Translations under genes and position numbers: made by a program
Assembly: GCA_030147945.1 (NCBI GenBank)
Contig: JASBUL010000111.1
Span: 1 to 64,000, forward strand
Origin: Oceanococcus sp.
GTDB lineage: Bacteria; Pseudomonadota; Gammaproteobacteria; Nevskiales; Oceanococcaceae
Direction: 5' to 3'
Length of the DNA: 64,000 bases
Notes under the pieces: generated by a model
What the model was told of the DNA's origin: nothing
Seen by the model: only the letters and a program-made list of their open reading frames with translations
Databases searched by the model: none
Part shown: piece by piece, positions 4,274-24,700 of the stretch
Numbering within the stretch: the stretch's first letter is position 1
How the letters are laid out: every line of letters starts with the position of its first letter

Positions 4274-4325
4274 CAGGGCTGCGCCAGCGCGGTGCGTGCA
4301 CCGCGTTGGGTCGTCGAAACACAAG

Positions 4326-4355: not shown

Positions 4356-4361
4356 TATACT
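4356..4361 (+). promoter_or_regulatory. glnL: -10 element of a glnL promoter
   Basis: TATACT directly follows the glnA terminator. Its predicted start near 4368 lies inside the NtrC site at 4361-4377. There is no good -35. The layout resembles the NtrC-repressed glnL promoter known from enteric bacteria. Confidence 0.5.
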
Positions 4362-4377
4362 GCACCAAAACAGTGCG
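4361..4377 (+). promoter_or_regulatory. NtrC-binding site at the glnL promoter
   Basis: TGCACC-AAAAC-AGTGCG has a perfect left half-site, the correct spacer and a right half with two mismatches. It overlaps the last base of the TATACT -10 and the likely start point, so bound NtrC would be expected to repress glnLG. Confidence 0.75.
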
Positions 4378-4417: not shown

Positions 4418-5497
4418 ATGCCCATGACTCCCCCGCGTCCACAGTTGACCGCCGTCGAAGCGCTCGATGGGCTGACCCTGGCTGTAATTGCCCTGGATCA
4501 GCAGCTGCGGGTGGATCGCATGAACTCCTCGGCGGAAGTGTTGTTCGGCGTCAGTGCGGGCTACGCCTGCGGCGAATCCTTGCACACCGCCCTGCCGCTG
4601 CTGGCGCCGATTGTGGGCCGGGTGGCACAGGCGCTGAGTGACGGTGAAGGTTTTACCGAGCGTGAGCTACGCCTGCGTGGCCCGGGCGGGCGCACCATTA
4701 CGCTGGACGTTTCAGCCACACCGGTGCGCAGTGGTGTTGATCGGGCATTGTTGCTGGAACTGATGCCGCGTGATCGCCAGTTGCGTATCAGCCGCGACAA
4801 CAGCTTGTGGAAACAACAGCAGATTTCGCGCGAGATGATTCGCGGTCTGGCCCATGAGATTAAGAATCCTCTGGGTGGATTGCGTGGGGCCGCGCAGTTG
4901 CTGGCACGCCAGGTCAACGATCCATCGCTGACCGAATTCACCGATGTGATCATCAATGAGGCGGACCGCCTGCAGGCGCTGGTGGACCGTTTGCTGGGGC
5001 CGAACCGGCCGCCGAAGAAGCGCCAGATCAATATTCATGAAGTGGTCGAGCATGTGTGCAAGCTGGTTTGCGCCCAGGCGTCCGCCCAGGTTGTGGTCGA
5101 GCGCGACTACGATCCCAGCCTGCCGGAGCTGCTGGCTGACCCTGAACAGATGATTCAGGCACTGCTGAATATCGGCGTCAACGCACTGGAGGCGGTGGGT
5201 GATGAGGGCCGCATTCGGTTTCGCACCCGCTCACAGCGCCAGTTCACGATTGGTGGCACGCGCCACCGCTTCGTTTTGCGTGTGGATGTCACCGACGACG
5301 GGCCGGGCATTCCTCCTGCAATGCTGGAGCAGATTTTCTATCCCATGGTCACCACGCGGCCTGAAGGTTCAGGGCTGGGGTTGGCCATTGCGCAGAACCT
5401 GGTGCACACCCATGGCGGGCTGATCGAATGCGACAGCCGTCCGGGCGCCACCACGTTTTCCATTTACCTGCCCGTGGAATGTAGCGATGTCACTTGA
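4418..5497 (+). CDS. glnL: Nitrogen regulation sensor histidine kinase NtrB
   Basis: NtrB phosphorylates NtrC under nitrogen limitation and dephosphorylates it when PII is bound. The call starts at ATG 4418 (359 residues); ATG 4424 is equally possible. An open extension to 4292 would translate the terminator and is rejected. Order: N-terminal PAS-like sensor (about 15-120), dimerisation/H-box with GLAHEIKNPLGGLRGAAQL and phospho-acceptor His146, then a GHKL ATPase with N-box (LNIGVNALEA), DDGPGIPP and GSGLGLAIAQNL. There are no membrane segments, as expected for cytoplasmic NtrB. It overlaps glnG by 11 bp. Confidence 0.97.
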   Translation: MPMTPPRPQLTAVEALDGLTLAVIALDQQLRVDRMNSSAEVLFGVSAGYACGESLHTALPLLAPIVGRVAQALSDGEGFTERELRLRGPGGRTITLDVSATPVRSGVDRALLLELMPRDRQLRISRDNSLWKQQQISREMIRGLAHEIKNPLGGLRGAAQLLARQVNDPSLTEFTDVIINEADRLQALVDRLLGPNRPPKKRQINIHEVVEHVCKLVCAQASAQVVVERDYDPSLPELLADPEQMIQALLNIGVNALEAVGDEGRIRFRTRSQRQFTIGGTRHRFVLRVDVTDDGPGIPPAMLEQIFYPMVTTRPEGSGLGLAIAQNLVHTHGGLIECDSRPGATTFSIYLPVECSDVT

Positions 5498-6947
5498 AGT
5501 CTGGGTTGTAGACGACGACGACAGTATCCGCTGGGTGCTCGAAAAGGCGCTCGGTGCTGCCGGTATGGCGGTGTCGAGCTTTCCTGGCGGCGTGGAGATG
5601 CTCGATGCGCTGGACAGCGCTTGTCCCGACGTGGTCGTCACCGACATCCGCATGCGCGGTATCGACGGCATCGAGCTGTTGCAGCGCTTGAAGAAGGTCC
5701 AGCCCGATCTGCCGGCGATCATCATGACGGCGCATTCCGATCTGGACAGCGCGGTGTCGGCGTATCAGGGCGGGGCTTTTGAATATCTGCCCAAGCCCTT
5801 CGACGTGGATGATGCGGTTGACCTGGTGCGGCGTGCAGCGCGTCTGGCCGCTGAAGAAAAGCCGGCGGCCACGGAAGAGCTGGCCAACACCGTGCTGGTT
5901 GGCGAGGCGCCGGCCATGCAGGAGGTTTTTCGCGCCATTGGGCGGCTGTCGCATTCCGATATCAATGTGCTGATCACCGGCGAATCCGGGACCGGCAAGG
6001 AGCTGGTCGCGCGGGCGTTGCACGCCCATAGCCCGCGTTCGCGCAACAGTTTTATTGCCATCAACACCGCGGCGATCCCCAAGGACCTGATGGAGTCCGA
6101 ATTCTTCGGCCACGAACGCGGTGCCTTCACCGGCGCCACCGGGCAGCGCAAGGGCCGCTTTGAGCAAGCCGATGGCGGCACCCTGTTCCTGGACGAAATC
6201 GGCGAAATGCCGGCCGATCTGCAGACCCGTTTGTTGCGTGTGCTGGCCGATGGCGAGTTCTATCGCGTCGGTGGCCATGTGCCGGTCAAGGTTGATGTGC
6301 GGGTAGTGGCAGCGACCAATCAGGATCTGGAAACCGCGGTCAACGAGGGGCGTTTTCGCGAGGACCTGTTCCACCGTCTCAATGTGATCCGTGTGCGCCT
6401 GCCGCCGTTGCGTGAGCGTGCCGAAGACATTCCCCTGCTGCTCAAGCATTTCATGGTGGCCTGTGCGCGTGAACTCGGCGCCGAGAGCAAGCAGCTGCGT
6501 CCCGAGGTGGTGCAGCATCTGGCCTCGTTGACCTGGCCGGGTAACGTGCGCCAGCTGGAGAATATCTGCCGCTGGCTGACGGTGATGGCGCCGGGTGCCG
6601 AAGTGCATCTGGACGACCTGCCGGGCGATCTGCCGCCAGCGCGCGCCGGCGTGGCCGAGCCTGCAGGCGACGCGCCGCTGTCAGGCGAGACGGCGGCCAG
6701 CTATGGCGAAGTGATTCATGGCACCAGCGGGGCCGGTGGCGACTGGCGTCTGAGCCTGGCGCACTGGGCCGAAGCGCAGCTTGAACGCGGCGAAACCGGG
6801 GTGCTGGATCAGGCCATGCCGCAGATCGAAAAGTTGCTCATCCAGGTGGCGCTCAAGCACAGCGGTGGCCACAAGCAGGATGCGGCCAAGCTGCTAGGCT
6901 GGGGCCGCAATACCCTGACTCGCAAACTCAAGGAGCTGGGCATGTAA
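5487..6947 (+). CDS. glnG: Nitrogen response regulator NtrC (sigma-54 activator)
   Basis: NtrC is an enhancer-binding protein that activates sigma-54 RNA polymerase at nitrogen-regulated promoters. It has 486 residues. The receiver domain (1-120) carries an acidic cluster at 9-12, phospho-acceptor Asp53 and Lys103. The AAA+ domain has Walker A GESGTGKE (165-172), the sigma-54 contact loop GAFTGA (212-217) and Walker B LFLDEIGE (233-240). The C-terminal Fis-type helix-turn-helix includes DAAKLLGWGRNTLTRKLKEL. All functional motifs are intact. Its own binding sites are visible at glnA, glnL and glnK in this window. Confidence 0.98.
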   Translation: MSLEVWVVDDDDSIRWVLEKALGAAGMAVSSFPGGVEMLDALDSACPDVVVTDIRMRGIDGIELLQRLKKVQPDLPAIIMTAHSDLDSAVSAYQGGAFEYLPKPFDVDDAVDLVRRAARLAAEEKPAATEELANTVLVGEAPAMQEVFRAIGRLSHSDINVLITGESGTGKELVARALHAHSPRSRNSFIAINTAAIPKDLMESEFFGHERGAFTGATGQRKGRFEQADGGTLFLDEIGEMPADLQTRLLRVLADGEFYRVGGHVPVKVDVRVVAATNQDLETAVNEGRFREDLFHRLNVIRVRLPPLRERAEDIPLLLKHFMVACARELGAESKQLRPEVVQHLASLTWPGNVRQLENICRWLTVMAPGAEVHLDDLPGDLPPARAGVAEPAGDAPLSGETAASYGEVIHGTSGAGGDWRLSLAHWAEAQLERGETGVLDQAMPQIEKLLIQVALKHSGGHKQDAAKLLGWGRNTLTRKLKELGM

Positions 6948-19788: not shown

Positions 19789-21054
19789 TTAGGACTTGGT
19801 GAAGTCCGGGTAGGCTTCGAGACCGCACTCGGCGATATCGACACCTTCCATCTCTTCCTCTTCGCTGACGCGGATGCCCATGATCACTTTGAGCACGCCC
19901 CAGACAATGAGGCTGGTCACGAAGACCCACACGAAGATGGTGGCCGCACCGATCAGCTGACCGCTGAAGGTCGAGCCGTCGTTGGTCAGCGGCACAACCA
20001 GCAGGCCGAGCAGGCCGCAGGTGCCGTGGACCGAGATCGCACCGACCGGATCATCGATCTTGAGCTTGTCCAGCAGCAGGATGGAGAACACCACCAGCAC
20101 ACCACCGATCGCACCGAACAGGGTCGCGGTCAGGGCCGTCGGGGTGCTCGGCTCGGCAGTGATGACCACCAGGCCAGCCAGAGCGCCGTTCAGGGCCATG
20201 GTCAGGTCAGCCTTGCCGAACAGCAGGCGAGCGGTCAGCAGGGCTGCCACCAGGCCACCGGCAGCGGCGGTGTTGGTGTTCAGGAACACCATGGCCACAG
20301 CGTTGGCATTGGAGATGTCACCCAGTTTGAGCACCGAGCCGCCGTTGAAGCCGAACCAGCCCATCCACAGGATGAAGGTACCCAGCGTGGCCAGCGGCAG
20401 GTTGGAACCCGGGATCGGGCTCACTTTGCCATCAGGGCCGTACTTGCCCTTACGCGGACCAAGCAGCAGCACGCCAGCCAGGGCTGCAGCCGCACCGGCC
20501 ATGTGCACGATGCCGGAACCGGCGAAGTCGGAGAAGCCCAGATCGCCCAGGGTGAACATGCCGAACACGGAGCCGCCGCCCCAGGTCCAGTTGCCTTCCA
20601 TCGGGTAGATGAAACCGGTCATGACCACCGCAAAGGCCAGGAAGGCCCACAGCTTCATGCGCTCAGCAACGGCACCGGAAACGATCGACATGGCCGTGGC
20701 CACGAAGACCACCTGGAAGAAGAAGTCCGAAGCACCCGAGTAGATCGAGCCACCGCGGAAGCCATCTTCACGTCCGGCGAAATCGACCAGTACAGCATCG
20801 GCATCGACGTCGGCAATGCCCGACAGGAACAGATCGCCACCGTACATGATCATGTAACCGCAGATCATGTACATGATGCAGGAAATCGAGAACAGGGCGA
20901 CGTTCTTGGTCAGAATTTCGGTGGTGTTCTTGGCCCGGACCAGACCAGCTTCCAGCATGGAGAAGCCGGCGGCCATCCACATCACCAGTGCGCCACAGAC
21001 CAGGAAATAAAAGGTGTCTATGGCGTACTGCAGCTCAAAAATATTGTTTTCCAT
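19789..21054 (-). CDS. amtB: Ammonium transporter AmtB
   Basis: The protein has 421 residues and about 11 membrane helices. It conducts ammonia/ammonium across the inner membrane and is blocked by GlnK. Family segments present include MWMAAGFSMLEAGLVRAKNT, PMEGNWTWGGG, DFAGSGIVHMAGAAAALAG and GWFGFNGGS, with the channel-lining His region HGTCGLLG. Unlike E. coli AmtB, no cleavable signal peptide is obvious; the N-terminus resembles the longer Amt type found with glnK in many proteobacteria. A GGGAG ribosome site precedes the ATG. It is co-transcribed with glnK, 31 bp downstream of it. Confidence 0.98.
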   Translation of the reverse strand: MENNIFELQYAIDTFYFLVCGALVMWMAAGFSMLEAGLVRAKNTTEILTKNVALFSISCIMYMICGYMIMYGGDLFLSGIADVDADAVLVDFAGREDGFRGGSIYSGASDFFFQVVFVATAMSIVSGAVAERMKLWAFLAFAVVMTGFIYPMEGNWTWGGGSVFGMFTLGDLGFSDFAGSGIVHMAGAAAALAGVLLLGPRKGKYGPDGKVSPIPGSNLPLATLGTFILWMGWFGFNGGSVLKLGDISNANAVAMVFLNTNTAAAGGLVAALLTARLLFGKADLTMALNGALAGLVVITAEPSTPTALTATLFGAIGGVLVVFSILLLDKLKIDDPVGAISVHGTCGLLGLLVVPLTNDGSTFSGQLIGAATIFVWVFVTSLIVWGVLKVIMGIRVSEEEEMEGVDIAECGLEAYPDFTKS

Positions 21055-21085: not shown

Positions 21086-21487
<402 letters not shown>

Positions 21488-21492
21488 TCAAA

Positions 21493-21507
21493 GCACGCGA
21501 CGTGCCA
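21493..21507 (-). promoter_or_regulatory. glnK: Sigma-54 promoter of glnK-amtB
   Basis: On the minus strand it reads TGGCAC-GTCGC-GTGC, which matches the -24 box perfectly and the -12 box with one mismatch, at the exact 12-base spacing. The predicted start is near 21481, giving a leader of about 57 nt before glnK. Confidence 0.8.
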
Positions 21508-21584
21508 ACTTTTGCGGAGCACGCTGCGAAAAGGGATAATCCACAACCGGTTTCGCCCTCGCGGCGTGCTGCCCCACAAATCAA

Positions 21585-21601
21585 TGCACCTAAATGGTGC
21601 G
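21585..21601 (-). promoter_or_regulatory. NtrC-binding site A upstream of glnK
   Basis: TGCACC-TAAAT-GGTGCG is a near-perfect NtrC palindrome with one mismatch in the outermost base. It lies about 110 bp upstream of the predicted glnK start. Confidence 0.85.
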
Positions 21602-21618
21602 TGCATCAAAAGAGTGCG
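21602..21618 (-). promoter_or_regulatory. NtrC-binding site B, abutting site A and the ubiK start
   Basis: TGCATC-AAAAG-AGTGCG directly follows site A, with no gap, and is weaker. Its end is 6 bp before the ubiK ATG, so it lies in the ubiK leader or ribosome-site region as well as in the glnK enhancer. Confidence 0.65.
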
Positions 21619-21624
21619 TGAGCC

Positions 21625-21867
21625 ATGAAGCCCAATCCCGTGCAGGAACTTGCCGAACGGCTGAGTCAGGTGCTGCCGCCCGGTCTGGCCTCAGTGCGGG
21701 ACGAGCTGCGGGACAATTTCCGTGCGGTGCTGCAGGCCCAGCTGAGCGAACTGGATCTGGTCAGCCGGGAGCAGTTCGAGGTGCAGAAAGAGTTGCTGCT
21801 GCGTCTGCGTCAGCGCCTGGTCGAGCTGGAGGCCCGGGTCGCGGAACTGGAAAAGACCAGCCCCTGA
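21625..21867 (+). CDS. ubiK: Ubiquinone biosynthesis accessory factor UbiK
   Basis: An 80-residue coiled-coil protein of the BMFP/DUF526 family. The central segment RAVLQAQLSELDLVSREQFEVQ matches the UbiK core, and the C-terminal heptad-rich part (LLRLRQRLVELEARVAELEK) forms the trimeric coiled coil. UbiK helps the Ubi complex with UbiJ. It is divergent from glnK, and NtrC sites fill its leader. There is no usual Shine-Dalgarno sequence before the ATG (GTGCGTGAGCC). Confidence 0.9.
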   Translation: MKPNPVQELAERLSQVLPPGLASVRDELRDNFRAVLQAQLSELDLVSREQFEVQKELLLRLRQRLVELEARVAELEKTSP

Positions 21868-21925
21868 CTAAAGTCACCCGGCCACTGGCCGATACCCGAG
21901 CAGATTCCATGCGTGTTTCTGCTCC

Positions 21926-24700
21926 ATGCTGTCCACCGCTTTTGTCCGCAAAAACCTGCCACTTGCGATAACCCTGGTCGTCGGGACGCTGGTGACGTTG
22001 GGTGCGTGGCGCTTCGTCGAGAACGTTGAACGTGAGCGGACAGAGCTGGCGTTCAGTCAGCGGGTCGAGAACACCGCTGACGCAATCCTGGATCGTTTCG
22101 CCGCCTATCAGCAGGTTCTTCATGGTGGCGCGGCCTTGCTCCACGCCTCGCACGCGGTGTCCCGTACCGAATGGCGGGTCTACGTCGAACACCTGATGGT
22201 GGAAGAGCTGTTCCCGGGCATTCAGGGGGTCGGCTACGCGGTCAATCTTGCGCCGGGTGATCTGGACGCACATGAGCGCGCGGTGCGCGCGGACGGTTTT
22301 CCTGACTACCGGGTGCATCCTCACGCCGTCCGCGGGCCGCCGCCATCCTCCGCCATCATCTATCTGGAACCCTTTGATGTGCGGAATCAGCGCGCGTTCG
22401 GCTATGACATGTATTCCAATGCCATCCGCCGTACGGCGATGGCGCGGGCGCGCGACACGGGCAAGCCCGCCCTGTCGGGACGCGTGACGCTGCTGCAGGA
22501 AATGGATCAGGACCTGCAGGCCGGGACCCTGCTGTATCTGCCGGTGTACCGCGAGGATGGCCCGCTGGATACCGTGGCGCAACGACGCGCCGCCCTGCTG
22601 GGCTGGGTGTACAGCCCGTTTCGCATGAACAATCTGATGCAGGGCATTCTCGGTCACGATTTGCGTGGCGTGCGTCTGCGTGTCTTCGATGGTCAGAGCG
22701 AGGACGAGGCCAGCCTGCTGTTCGACAGTGATTCCCAAGCCCAGCACCCGGTGGCCTTGATGACCACGCGGCGCGTGCTGCAGGTCGCCGGTCGGCCATG
22801 GACCATGGCCCTGTCGCTTGAACCGGCCGCCGCGGCTGCGGGGCTTACGCAGGCCTCGATAGTGCTGATCGGCGGTCTGATCACGACCCTGCTGCTGGCC
22901 TGGGTGGTGGTGAGCCTGCGCAGTTCCGAGGAGCGCGCCGGCCGTCTGGCCTGGGAGATGACCGACGCGCTGCGTGCTAGCGAACGGCGTTATCGGGCCA
23001 TTCTGGAGCACACCGCCGATGGCATCCTGACCATCGACGAACGCGGCATCGTGCGCAGTTTCAACAAGGCAGCCGAAGCCATATTCGGCTACAGCGCGGA
23101 TGAAGTGATCGGCCGCAACGTGTCCAAACTCATGCCCGAGCGCTACCGCGCCCAGCACGACGGTTACGTCGCGCGCATGGAAACCAGTGCCTCACACCGC
23201 AATCTCGGCATGCGCCGTGAGGTGGTCGGCTTGCGCAGCGATGGCGAGGAGTTTCCTTTGTGGCTGGCGGTCAACAAGATCCCCACCCGCGGAGCCCTGG
23301 AGTATGTCGGCATGGTCAGCGATCTGACCGAGCGCAAGCGCATCCAGGCCGAGTTGCAGTACACCGCGCACCATGATGCGCTCACCACGCTGCCCAATCG
23401 AGCCGTGCTCAAGGACCGCCTCGACCAGGCTATTCGTCTGGCCCGCCGCGAAGGCAACAAGGTGGCCGTGCTGATGCTCGATCTGGATCATTTCAAGCGC
23501 ATCAACGACACCCTGGGCCATCATGTCGGCGACGACCTGCTGATCAGTATCGCGTTGCGTCTGGAGGCGTCCGTCCGGGATGTCGACACGGTCGTGCGCA
23601 TGGGCGGCGACGAGTTCGTGATCGTGCTGCCCTCGGTGGGCGGGCGCGAGGACGTGGTGCCGGTGGTTGAAAAACTCATGCGCATCCTGTCCCAGCCGAT
23701 TTCCGTGGTGGGGCACGAGATGATCATCACCCCCAGCATCGGCGTGTGCCTGTGCCCGGACGACGGCCAGGACGAGCGCGCTTTGCTCAAGCACGCTGAT
23801 ACCGCCATGTACCAGGCCAAGGCTGCAGGTCGCGGCAACTACCAGTTCTTCGAGACCCACATGCTACGTACCAATCAGCGGCGTCTTGAAACCGAGACGG
23901 CGCTGCGCCGCGCCCTCGACCGCGGCGAGTTTTCCCTGCGTTTCCAGCCGCAGATCAATATTCACAGCGGCCAGCTGATCGGTTGCGAAGCCCTGGTGCG
24001 CTGGCACCATCCGCAGCTCGGTGATGTTTCCCCGGCGCTGTTCATTCCGATGGCTGAAGAGATGGGCCTGATCGGCTCGATCGGTGACTGGGTGCTGCTC
24101 AAAGCCTGTCAGGAGGCCGCCGAGATGCAGCGCGAGCTGGGGCAGCCCCTGCACGTGGCGGTGAATATTTCGCCGCAGCAGTTTTTCCGCAACGATATTG
24201 TCAGCAGCATCAATCGGGCACTGGCGATGAGCGGTTTTCCGGCCTCGCAGCTGGAGGTCGAGATCACCGAAGGGGTGTTGCTGGAAAACTCGCGTGAAAC
24301 CGTGCAGTTACTGCACAAAATCCGTGCGCTCGGGGTCTCCCTGGCGGTCGATGATTTCGGCACCGGCTACTCCAGCCTGTCCTACCTGACGCGCTTCCCG
24401 ATCGACAAGCTGAAAATCGACCAGAGTTTCGTGCGCGATATCACCACCGATGCCAGCGACGCCGCAGTGGCCAGCGCCATCATCGCCATGGCCCATTCGC
24501 TCAAGCTGGTTGTGGTCGCCGAGGGTGTCGAGACCCTGGAGCAGTACGAATTCCTCAGCCAGCGTCAATGCGACATCGCCCAGGGCTTCTACTTCGGGCG
24601 TCCGGTCACGCAGCGGGAATTCGTTGCCTCGGCCCAGCGTTTTCAGGGCCAGCCCGCGCTGGGCGATGCGCACGTCGCCTCGCTCGACCATCTGCACTGA
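21926..24700 (+). CDS. CHASE-PAS-GGDEF-EAL c-di-GMP signalling protein
   Basis: A 924-residue inner-membrane protein. An N-terminal helix (about 10-30) and a second near 310-330 bracket a periplasmic CHASE sensor (LFPGIQGVGYAVNL, DYRVHPHAVRGPP, YLEPFDVRNQRAFGYDM). A PAS domain (about 355-475, YRAILEHTADGILTIDERG) follows. The GGDEF domain has an intact RMGGDEF (560-564). The EAL domain has an intact EAL (688-690), DDFGTGYSSLSYL and KIDQSFVRD. Both cyclase and phosphodiesterase motifs look functional; which activity dominates cannot be read from sequence. The ligand of the CHASE domain is unknown. Confidence 0.93.
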   Translation: MLSTAFVRKNLPLAITLVVGTLVTLGAWRFVENVERERTELAFSQRVENTADAILDRFAAYQQVLHGGAALLHASHAVSRTEWRVYVEHLMVEELFPGIQGVGYAVNLAPGDLDAHERAVRADGFPDYRVHPHAVRGPPPSSAIIYLEPFDVRNQRAFGYDMYSNAIRRTAMARARDTGKPALSGRVTLLQEMDQDLQAGTLLYLPVYREDGPLDTVAQRRAALLGWVYSPFRMNNLMQGILGHDLRGVRLRVFDGQSEDEASLLFDSDSQAQHPVALMTTRRVLQVAGRPWTMALSLEPAAAAAGLTQASIVLIGGLITTLLLAWVVVSLRSSEERAGRLAWEMTDALRASERRYRAILEHTADGILTIDERGIVRSFNKAAEAIFGYSADEVIGRNVSKLMPERYRAQHDGYVARMETSASHRNLGMRREVVGLRSDGEEFPLWLAVNKIPTRGALEYVGMVSDLTERKRIQAELQYTAHHDALTTLPNRAVLKDRLDQAIRLARREGNKVAVLMLDLDHFKRINDTLGHHVGDDLLISIALRLEASVRDVDTVVRMGGDEFVIVLPSVGGREDVVPVVEKLMRILSQPISVVGHEMIITPSIGVCLCPDDGQDERALLKHADTAMYQAKAAGRGNYQFFETHMLRTNQRRLETETALRRALDRGEFSLRFQPQINIHSGQLIGCEALVRWHHPQLGDVSPALFIPMAEEMGLIGSIGDWVLLKACQEAAEMQRELGQPLHVAVNISPQQFFRNDIVSSINRALAMSGFPASQLEVEITEGVLLENSRETVQLLHKIRALGVSLAVDDFGTGYSSLSYLTRFPIDKLKIDQSFVRDITTDASDAAVASAIIAMAHSLKLVVVAEGVETLEQYEFLSQRQCDIAQGFYFGRPVTQREFVASAQRFQGQPALGDAHVASLDHLH

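Follow-up and report, generated by a model that had tools for sequence, protein, structure and literature searches.

In Oceanococcus sp., the short region between glnK and a divergently transcribed ubiK-family gene carries two palindromes of the NtrC type, the second of which ends almost at the ubiK initiation codon. This arrangement raises the question of which gene the sites serve and whether ubiK is affected by them. The preliminary description had read them as the glnK enhancer, and had added that phosphorylated NtrC bound there should block ubiK, coupling nitrogen starvation to a ubiquinone-assembly factor. The window analyzed here is the whole stretch of 64,000 nucleotides of contig JASBUL010000111.1, and it was compared with the rest of the genome and with related genomes. 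With a probability of about 0.78, the sequences indicate that the two sites form the NtrC enhancer of glnK-amtB and that any lowering of ubiK would be a by-product rather than a selected control link.

Two NtrC-type sites in a compact divergent promoter region

The features of the locus are collected in Table 1. The sites were scored against the NtrC consensus TGCACC-N5-GGTGCA. As had been described, they abut, with zero bp between them; the gap from site B to the ubiK ATG (21625-21627) is 6 bp (21619-21624), and that from site A is 23 bp. A site with at least 11 of the 12 consensus bases occurred in 0.12-0.13% of 20,000 Markov-simulated 200-bp stretches of the same dinucleotide make-up, and in none of the 20,000 was such a site abutted by one with at least 9/12. 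Across the genome, 18 places had no more than one mismatch among the matches listed, site A included. Since 324 places had no more than two, site B alone would not stand out.

Table 1. Coordinates of the features discussed (positions in the window)
Feature	Position	Strand	Remarks
ntrC	5487..6947	+	TIGR01818, 695.8 bits vs cut-off 558.6; same window
amtB-type ammonium transporter (TIGR03644 'marine subtype')	19789..21054	-	profile matches
glnK (P-II)	21086..21424	-	profile matches
glnK sigma54 -24/-12 box	21507-21492	-	TGGCACGTCGCGTGCT, 11/12; start predicted near 21481
predicted ubiK -35	21512..21517	+	TTGCGG, 3/6, weak; 4 bp from sigma54 box
predicted ubiK -10	21535..21540	+	GATAAT, 5/6; 17-bp spacer; start near 21546
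NtrC site A (candidate)	21585-21601	.	TGCACCTAAATGGTGCG, 11/12 consensus bases
NtrC site B (candidate)	21602-21618	.	TGCATCAAAAGAGTGCG, 9/12 consensus bases, abuts A
ubiK-family gene (BMFP)	21625..21867	+	PF04380, 81.8 bits vs cut-off 37.2
CHASE-PAS-GGDEF-EAL gene	21926..24700	+	58 bp after ubiK, same strand; profile match

The GG and GC elements of the glnK -24/-12 box are normally spaced. The centres of the two sites precede the predicted sigma54 start by 112 and 129 bp, within the usual enhancer range of about 100-140 bp. The regulators are also present: ntrC is encoded in the window, and the genome carries two rpoN genes, both above the family cut-off (G000:C12:16049-17476 and G000:C67:4434-5798). 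Upon nitrogen limitation, phosphorylated NtrC would bind site A strongly and site B weakly, oligomerize, and reach the sigma54 polymerase at 21492-21507 by a loop of about 115 bp, thereby activating it. In this genus, the sites adjoin the ubiK ATG because the intergenic region is only 200 bp long and the predicted ubiK and glnK promoters stand back to back.

This layout resembles the NtrC-activated sigma54 promoters of glnK(-amtB) in enterics and pseudomonads, which likewise combine a sigma54 box with NtrC palindromes some 110-130 bp upstream, the gene order glnK-amtB, and the proteins NtrC and RpoN. It differs from them in that only 6 bp separate the enhancer from the start codon of a divergent gene. 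The paired NtrC sites at E. coli glnA are spaced by about 32 bp, compared with 17 bp here.

The name ubiK is used at the family level only, since the gene scored 82.1 bits against the NCBIfam UbiK equivalog cut-off of 100 bits. Its ribosome site had been called abnormal. It is indeed weak, the longest match to AAGGAGGT being 3 nt, but this is common among ubiK loci: among the order loci no match of at least 3 nt was found in 21/61 and one of just 3 nt in 22/61, the corresponding class counts being 8/96 and 28/96. By these matches, a weak ribosome site does not set the window's locus apart.

Conservation of the sites and the gene that they follow

The same-genus comparison comprised one genome, G001, in which both sites are kept. 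There, site A matches the consensus at 12/12 and site B at 10/12 positions, and their distances to the ubiK ATG (23 and 6 bp) are unchanged. Eleven of the 12 half-site bases are identical to the window in each site, as are all five bases of the site B spacer (16/17 over the whole of site B). Identity is higher in the pair than in the flanks (29/34 versus 29/45 bases; one-sided p 0.03), third codon positions of ubiK are 57% identical, and the glnK sigma54 box is identical at 16/16 positions. Such preservation of the pair would fit a glnK function equally well, and a ubiK role stays compatible with it.

Outside the genus, the arrangement was not retained in the same form. Two genomes of the same family and of another genus (G002 and G003) have divergent glnK and ubiK genes and the sigma54 box, with intergenic regions of 127 and 151 bp, yet neither (0/2) has an NtrC site of at least 9/12 between the genes. 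To judge by these two genomes, the closeness of a site to the ubiK ATG is not kept beyond Oceanococcus.

A wider survey covered 157 ubiK loci, namely the window, 60 relatives of the same order, and 96 loci of the class. The class loci came from 114 genomes: 16 lacked a ubiK-family match, and two of the remaining 98 (G000 and G002) were removed as already included. Three weaker second matches of the class set, the second or third matches in G036, G038, and G054, and 16 further named related loci were left out of the counts. A locus was assigned to the sigma54-promoter group if a minus-strand box of at least 9/12 lay within 420 bp of ubiK (96/157 loci), and an NtrC site was counted if it scored at least 10/12 between -300 and +20 of ubiK.

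With the loci grouped in this way, 48 of the 96 loci that have a sigma54 promoter diverging from ubiK carried an NtrC site, versus 2 of the 61 others. Thus, with the sigma54 promoter absent, a site was kept with ubiK at these two loci only, and both have a divergent gene: at L170 it encodes a TorF-type porin, and at L178 inspection by eye of the sequence upstream of ubiK revealed a divergent signal-peptide gene together with a sigma54 box of degenerate form. The other 48 sigma54-promoter loci had no site of at least 10/12, so the consensus misses many enhancers. In the class set (n = 39 sites), the distance from site centre to sigma54 start had a median of 129 bp and an SD of 18 bp and was almost independent of the sigma54-ubiK spacing (rho 0.06), whereas the distance to the ubiK ATG had an SD of 45 bp and followed that spacing (rho 0.84). 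The window's 112 and 129 bp to the sigma54 start accord with these class values. Placement across the relatives is therefore fixed to the sigma54 operon, though imperfectly in the order set, since over all 59 sites the distance to the sigma54 start correlated with the spacing at rho 0.41.

Because the sites track sigma54 promoters and are placed by the sigma54 start rather than by ubiK, they are best regarded as the enhancer of glnK, in agreement with the first half of the earlier proposal. The second half, a nitrogen-to-ubiquinone control link, found no support in the survey, in which the sites go with the divergent sigma54 operon and not with ubiK. On present sequences, glnK alone explains where the sites lie, and the survey of ubiK loci held no comparative evidence of selection for NtrC control of ubiK.

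Neither the proximity to ubiK nor the pairing is peculiar to this locus. Over 48 loci, the enhancer-to-ATG gap had a median of 72.5 bp and ranged from 6 to 184 bp, a natural spread that would provide a ready test series for any block of the divergent gene, and sites close to the ubiK ATG occur in other families too (13 bp at L144, 26 bp at L110, and also L178). Pairs of at least 10/12 and 9/12 spaced by 13-19 bp were present at 9 other loci among the 96 with a sigma54 promoter; by this count the abutting pair does not distinguish the window's locus.

The glnK-ubiK neighbourhood is an old one, to judge by gene order: glnK was divergent to ubiK within 500 bp in the window itself, in 46 of the 60 order relatives, and at 36 of the 96 class loci. 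When the loci were instead grouped by adjacent glnK, sites of at least 10/12 appeared at 16 of the 60 class loci without glnK, against 1.0 expected, an excess that arose because TorF loci with a divergent sigma54 promoter were among them. At class loci without adjacent glnK, the divergent gene was a TorF-type porin (TIGR02001, NCBIfam) in 10/10 tested. A ubiK-specific conservation of NtrC sites was accordingly rejected after the loci had been regrouped by sigma54 promoter.

TorF-type genes divergent to ubiK were observed at L102, L121, L122, L130, L150, L154, L160, L170, L181, and L196. These loci belong to many families and mostly have a sigma54 box and NtrC sites; the TorF-type porin is likely nitrogen-controlled. 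Seven other loci (L014, L015, L030, L040, L056, L057, and L064) have a short intergenic region with the glnK sigma54 box present. None of the seven had an NtrC site of at least 9/12 in the expected range, the interior of ubiK included; the best matches to an enhancer inside ubiK in these short-intergenic relatives were 8/12.

Possible consequences for ubiK

Whether the enhancer affects ubiK depends on where ubiK transcription starts. The best sigma70-like candidate is TTGCGG-17-GATAAT (21512-21540), which scores 8/12 and is identical in G001; it came from a looser scan, while a stricter scan requiring a -35 of at least 4/6 reports none. No -10 of at least 4/6 lies nearer the ubiK ATG than GATAAT in the window or in G001, and the possibility of a sigma70 promoter downstream of the sites was rejected for the same reason. 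Since the best promoter is upstream of them, the sites belong to the predicted leader of ubiK, where they span roughly +39 to +72. Regulation by an RNA hairpin within this leader was also considered and rejected (fold z-score -1.73 in the window and 0.09 in G001). Elsewhere, -10-like hexamers within 45 bp of the ubiK ATG are enriched (30/61 order loci against 15.4 expected; 68/96 class loci against 47.5), and one stands between the NtrC site and the ATG at 32 of the 50 loci with a site. Oceanococcus thus appears to be a variant in which the putative ubiK promoter lies upstream of the enhancer.

Lowering of ubiK, by bound NtrC or by the adjacent sigma54 polymerase, is physically possible. The likeliest single outcome, although we rate it at somewhat under even odds, is that ubiK is not affected at all, either because polymerase passes bound NtrC or because ubiK starts elsewhere. 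This would be one form of the glnK-enhancer explanation, and it agrees with the lack of any ubiK-linked conservation of the sites. It also agrees with the literature: the preliminary description had known of no nitrogen-ubiK link, and searches of the open-licence literature for ubiK, yqiC, BMFP, or ubiquinone with NtrC or glnK likewise found no described one. A Salmonella yqiC mutant has glnK among its changed genes (PMC9714038), which is the reverse direction. Against an absence of effect stand the predicted promoter, kept in G001, and the lack of any -10 of at least 4/6 nearer the ATG.

A clash of the two promoters was judged possible at rather longer odds. Sigma54 polymerase resting on its box (21492-21507) would overlap the sigma70 footprint at the ubiK -35 and lower ubiK measurably, with or without NtrC. 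The distance of 4 bp between box and -35 is conserved in G001, and in E. coli, where promoters overlap, the RpoN holoenzyme competes with the RpoD holoenzyme, the more so when NtrC is present (PMC8743547). As in the E. coli 'repressive promoters' of RpoN, the sigma54 box of the present locus may adjoin a sigma70 promoter, if the predicted -35 is real; unlike them, the two promoters here are divergent and side by side, and any competition between them is putative. The -35 itself is weak and predicted. Such a clash can coexist with the glnK-enhancer explanation as its by-product.

The preliminary description had favored direct blocking of ubiK by bound NtrC. As a selected roadblock, phosphorylated NtrC on sites A and B, looped with the glnK polymerase, would stop ubiK elongation during nitrogen starvation, and perhaps that of the GGDEF-EAL gene too. 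We consider this improbable. The geometry permits it, inasmuch as the only good -10 precedes both sites, and site B ends next to the ATG, in the window and G001 alike. Hervas in 2010 is said to have described the gdhA promoter of P. putida as NtrC-repressed. For E. coli, transcription from glnAp1 and glnLp is lowered by NtrC (PMC3870243), and in vitro LacI blocks polymerase more strongly when looped than when unlooped (PMC5477534). As at glnAp1, glnLp, and gdhA, an NtrC site occurs here in the neighbourhood of a sigma70 promoter, in this case a predicted one; the present locus differs from them in that site A begins 44 bp downstream of the end of the predicted -10 and covers neither the -35, the -10, nor the start. 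The comparative evidence, however, argues against selection for such a block: conservation of the NtrC sites was not linked to ubiK in the 157-locus survey, the sites being placed by sigma54, the short distance to the ATG was absent from G002 and G003, and the frequent -10-like hexamer between site and ATG in relatives leaves no roadblock there. The ubiK promoter, moreover, is a prediction of 8/12.

The CHASE-PAS-GGDEF-EAL gene could share the ubiK transcript; no terminator-like site was found on the plus strand in 21300-21950. This neighbour also follows ubiK in G001 (91% identical), whereas stretches from five genomes of the order, G002 and G003 among them, held no match to the gene. A genus-specific second role, in which looped NtrC in the leader blocks ubiK and the CHASE-GGDEF-EAL gene so that nitrogen starvation at a single stroke reduces ubiquinone assembly and alters the turnover of cyclic-di-GMP, is the least probable of the proposals and very unlikely.

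Returning to the glnK enhancer, the locus is best taken for a compact divergent promoter of the ordinary kind. A side effect on ubiK is plausible, and any such effect is probably a by-product. If an NtrC-bound enhancer does block the divergent gene, this would give any sigma54 operon a simple route to depress its neighbour.

Further sigma54- and NtrC-type elements

Several other elements were noted. The second rpoN gene (C67:4434-5798) lies near a further enhancer-binding-protein match at C67:6626-7609. The glnK leader (21425-21491) is identical to G001 at 65 of 67 positions, far above the value for the third codon positions of ubiK. Downstream of amtB, nqrA (sodium-pumping NADH:quinone reductase) has a sigma54-like box upstream on the minus strand (19628-19613, TGGCACACACCCTGCT, 10/12), which is identical in G001 (L198:5424) and has no such match in the stretches from G002 and G003; a sigma54-controlled nqr operon, if true, would provide a link to quinones in its own right. 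A terminator-like stem at 19743-19716 led to the rejection of read-through from amtB into nqrA. Between glnA and ntrB (names by sequence reading), an NtrC-like 17-bp tandem occupies 4280-4313, with units at 4280 and 4297, and a further NtrC-like site at 4361-4377, TGCACCAAAACAGTGCG, directly follows TATACT. The TGCACCAAAACAGTGCG site has the appearance of an operator for ntrBC autorepression, similar to that of E. coli glnLp, and the glnA-ntrB stretch with these sites is 97% identical in G001.
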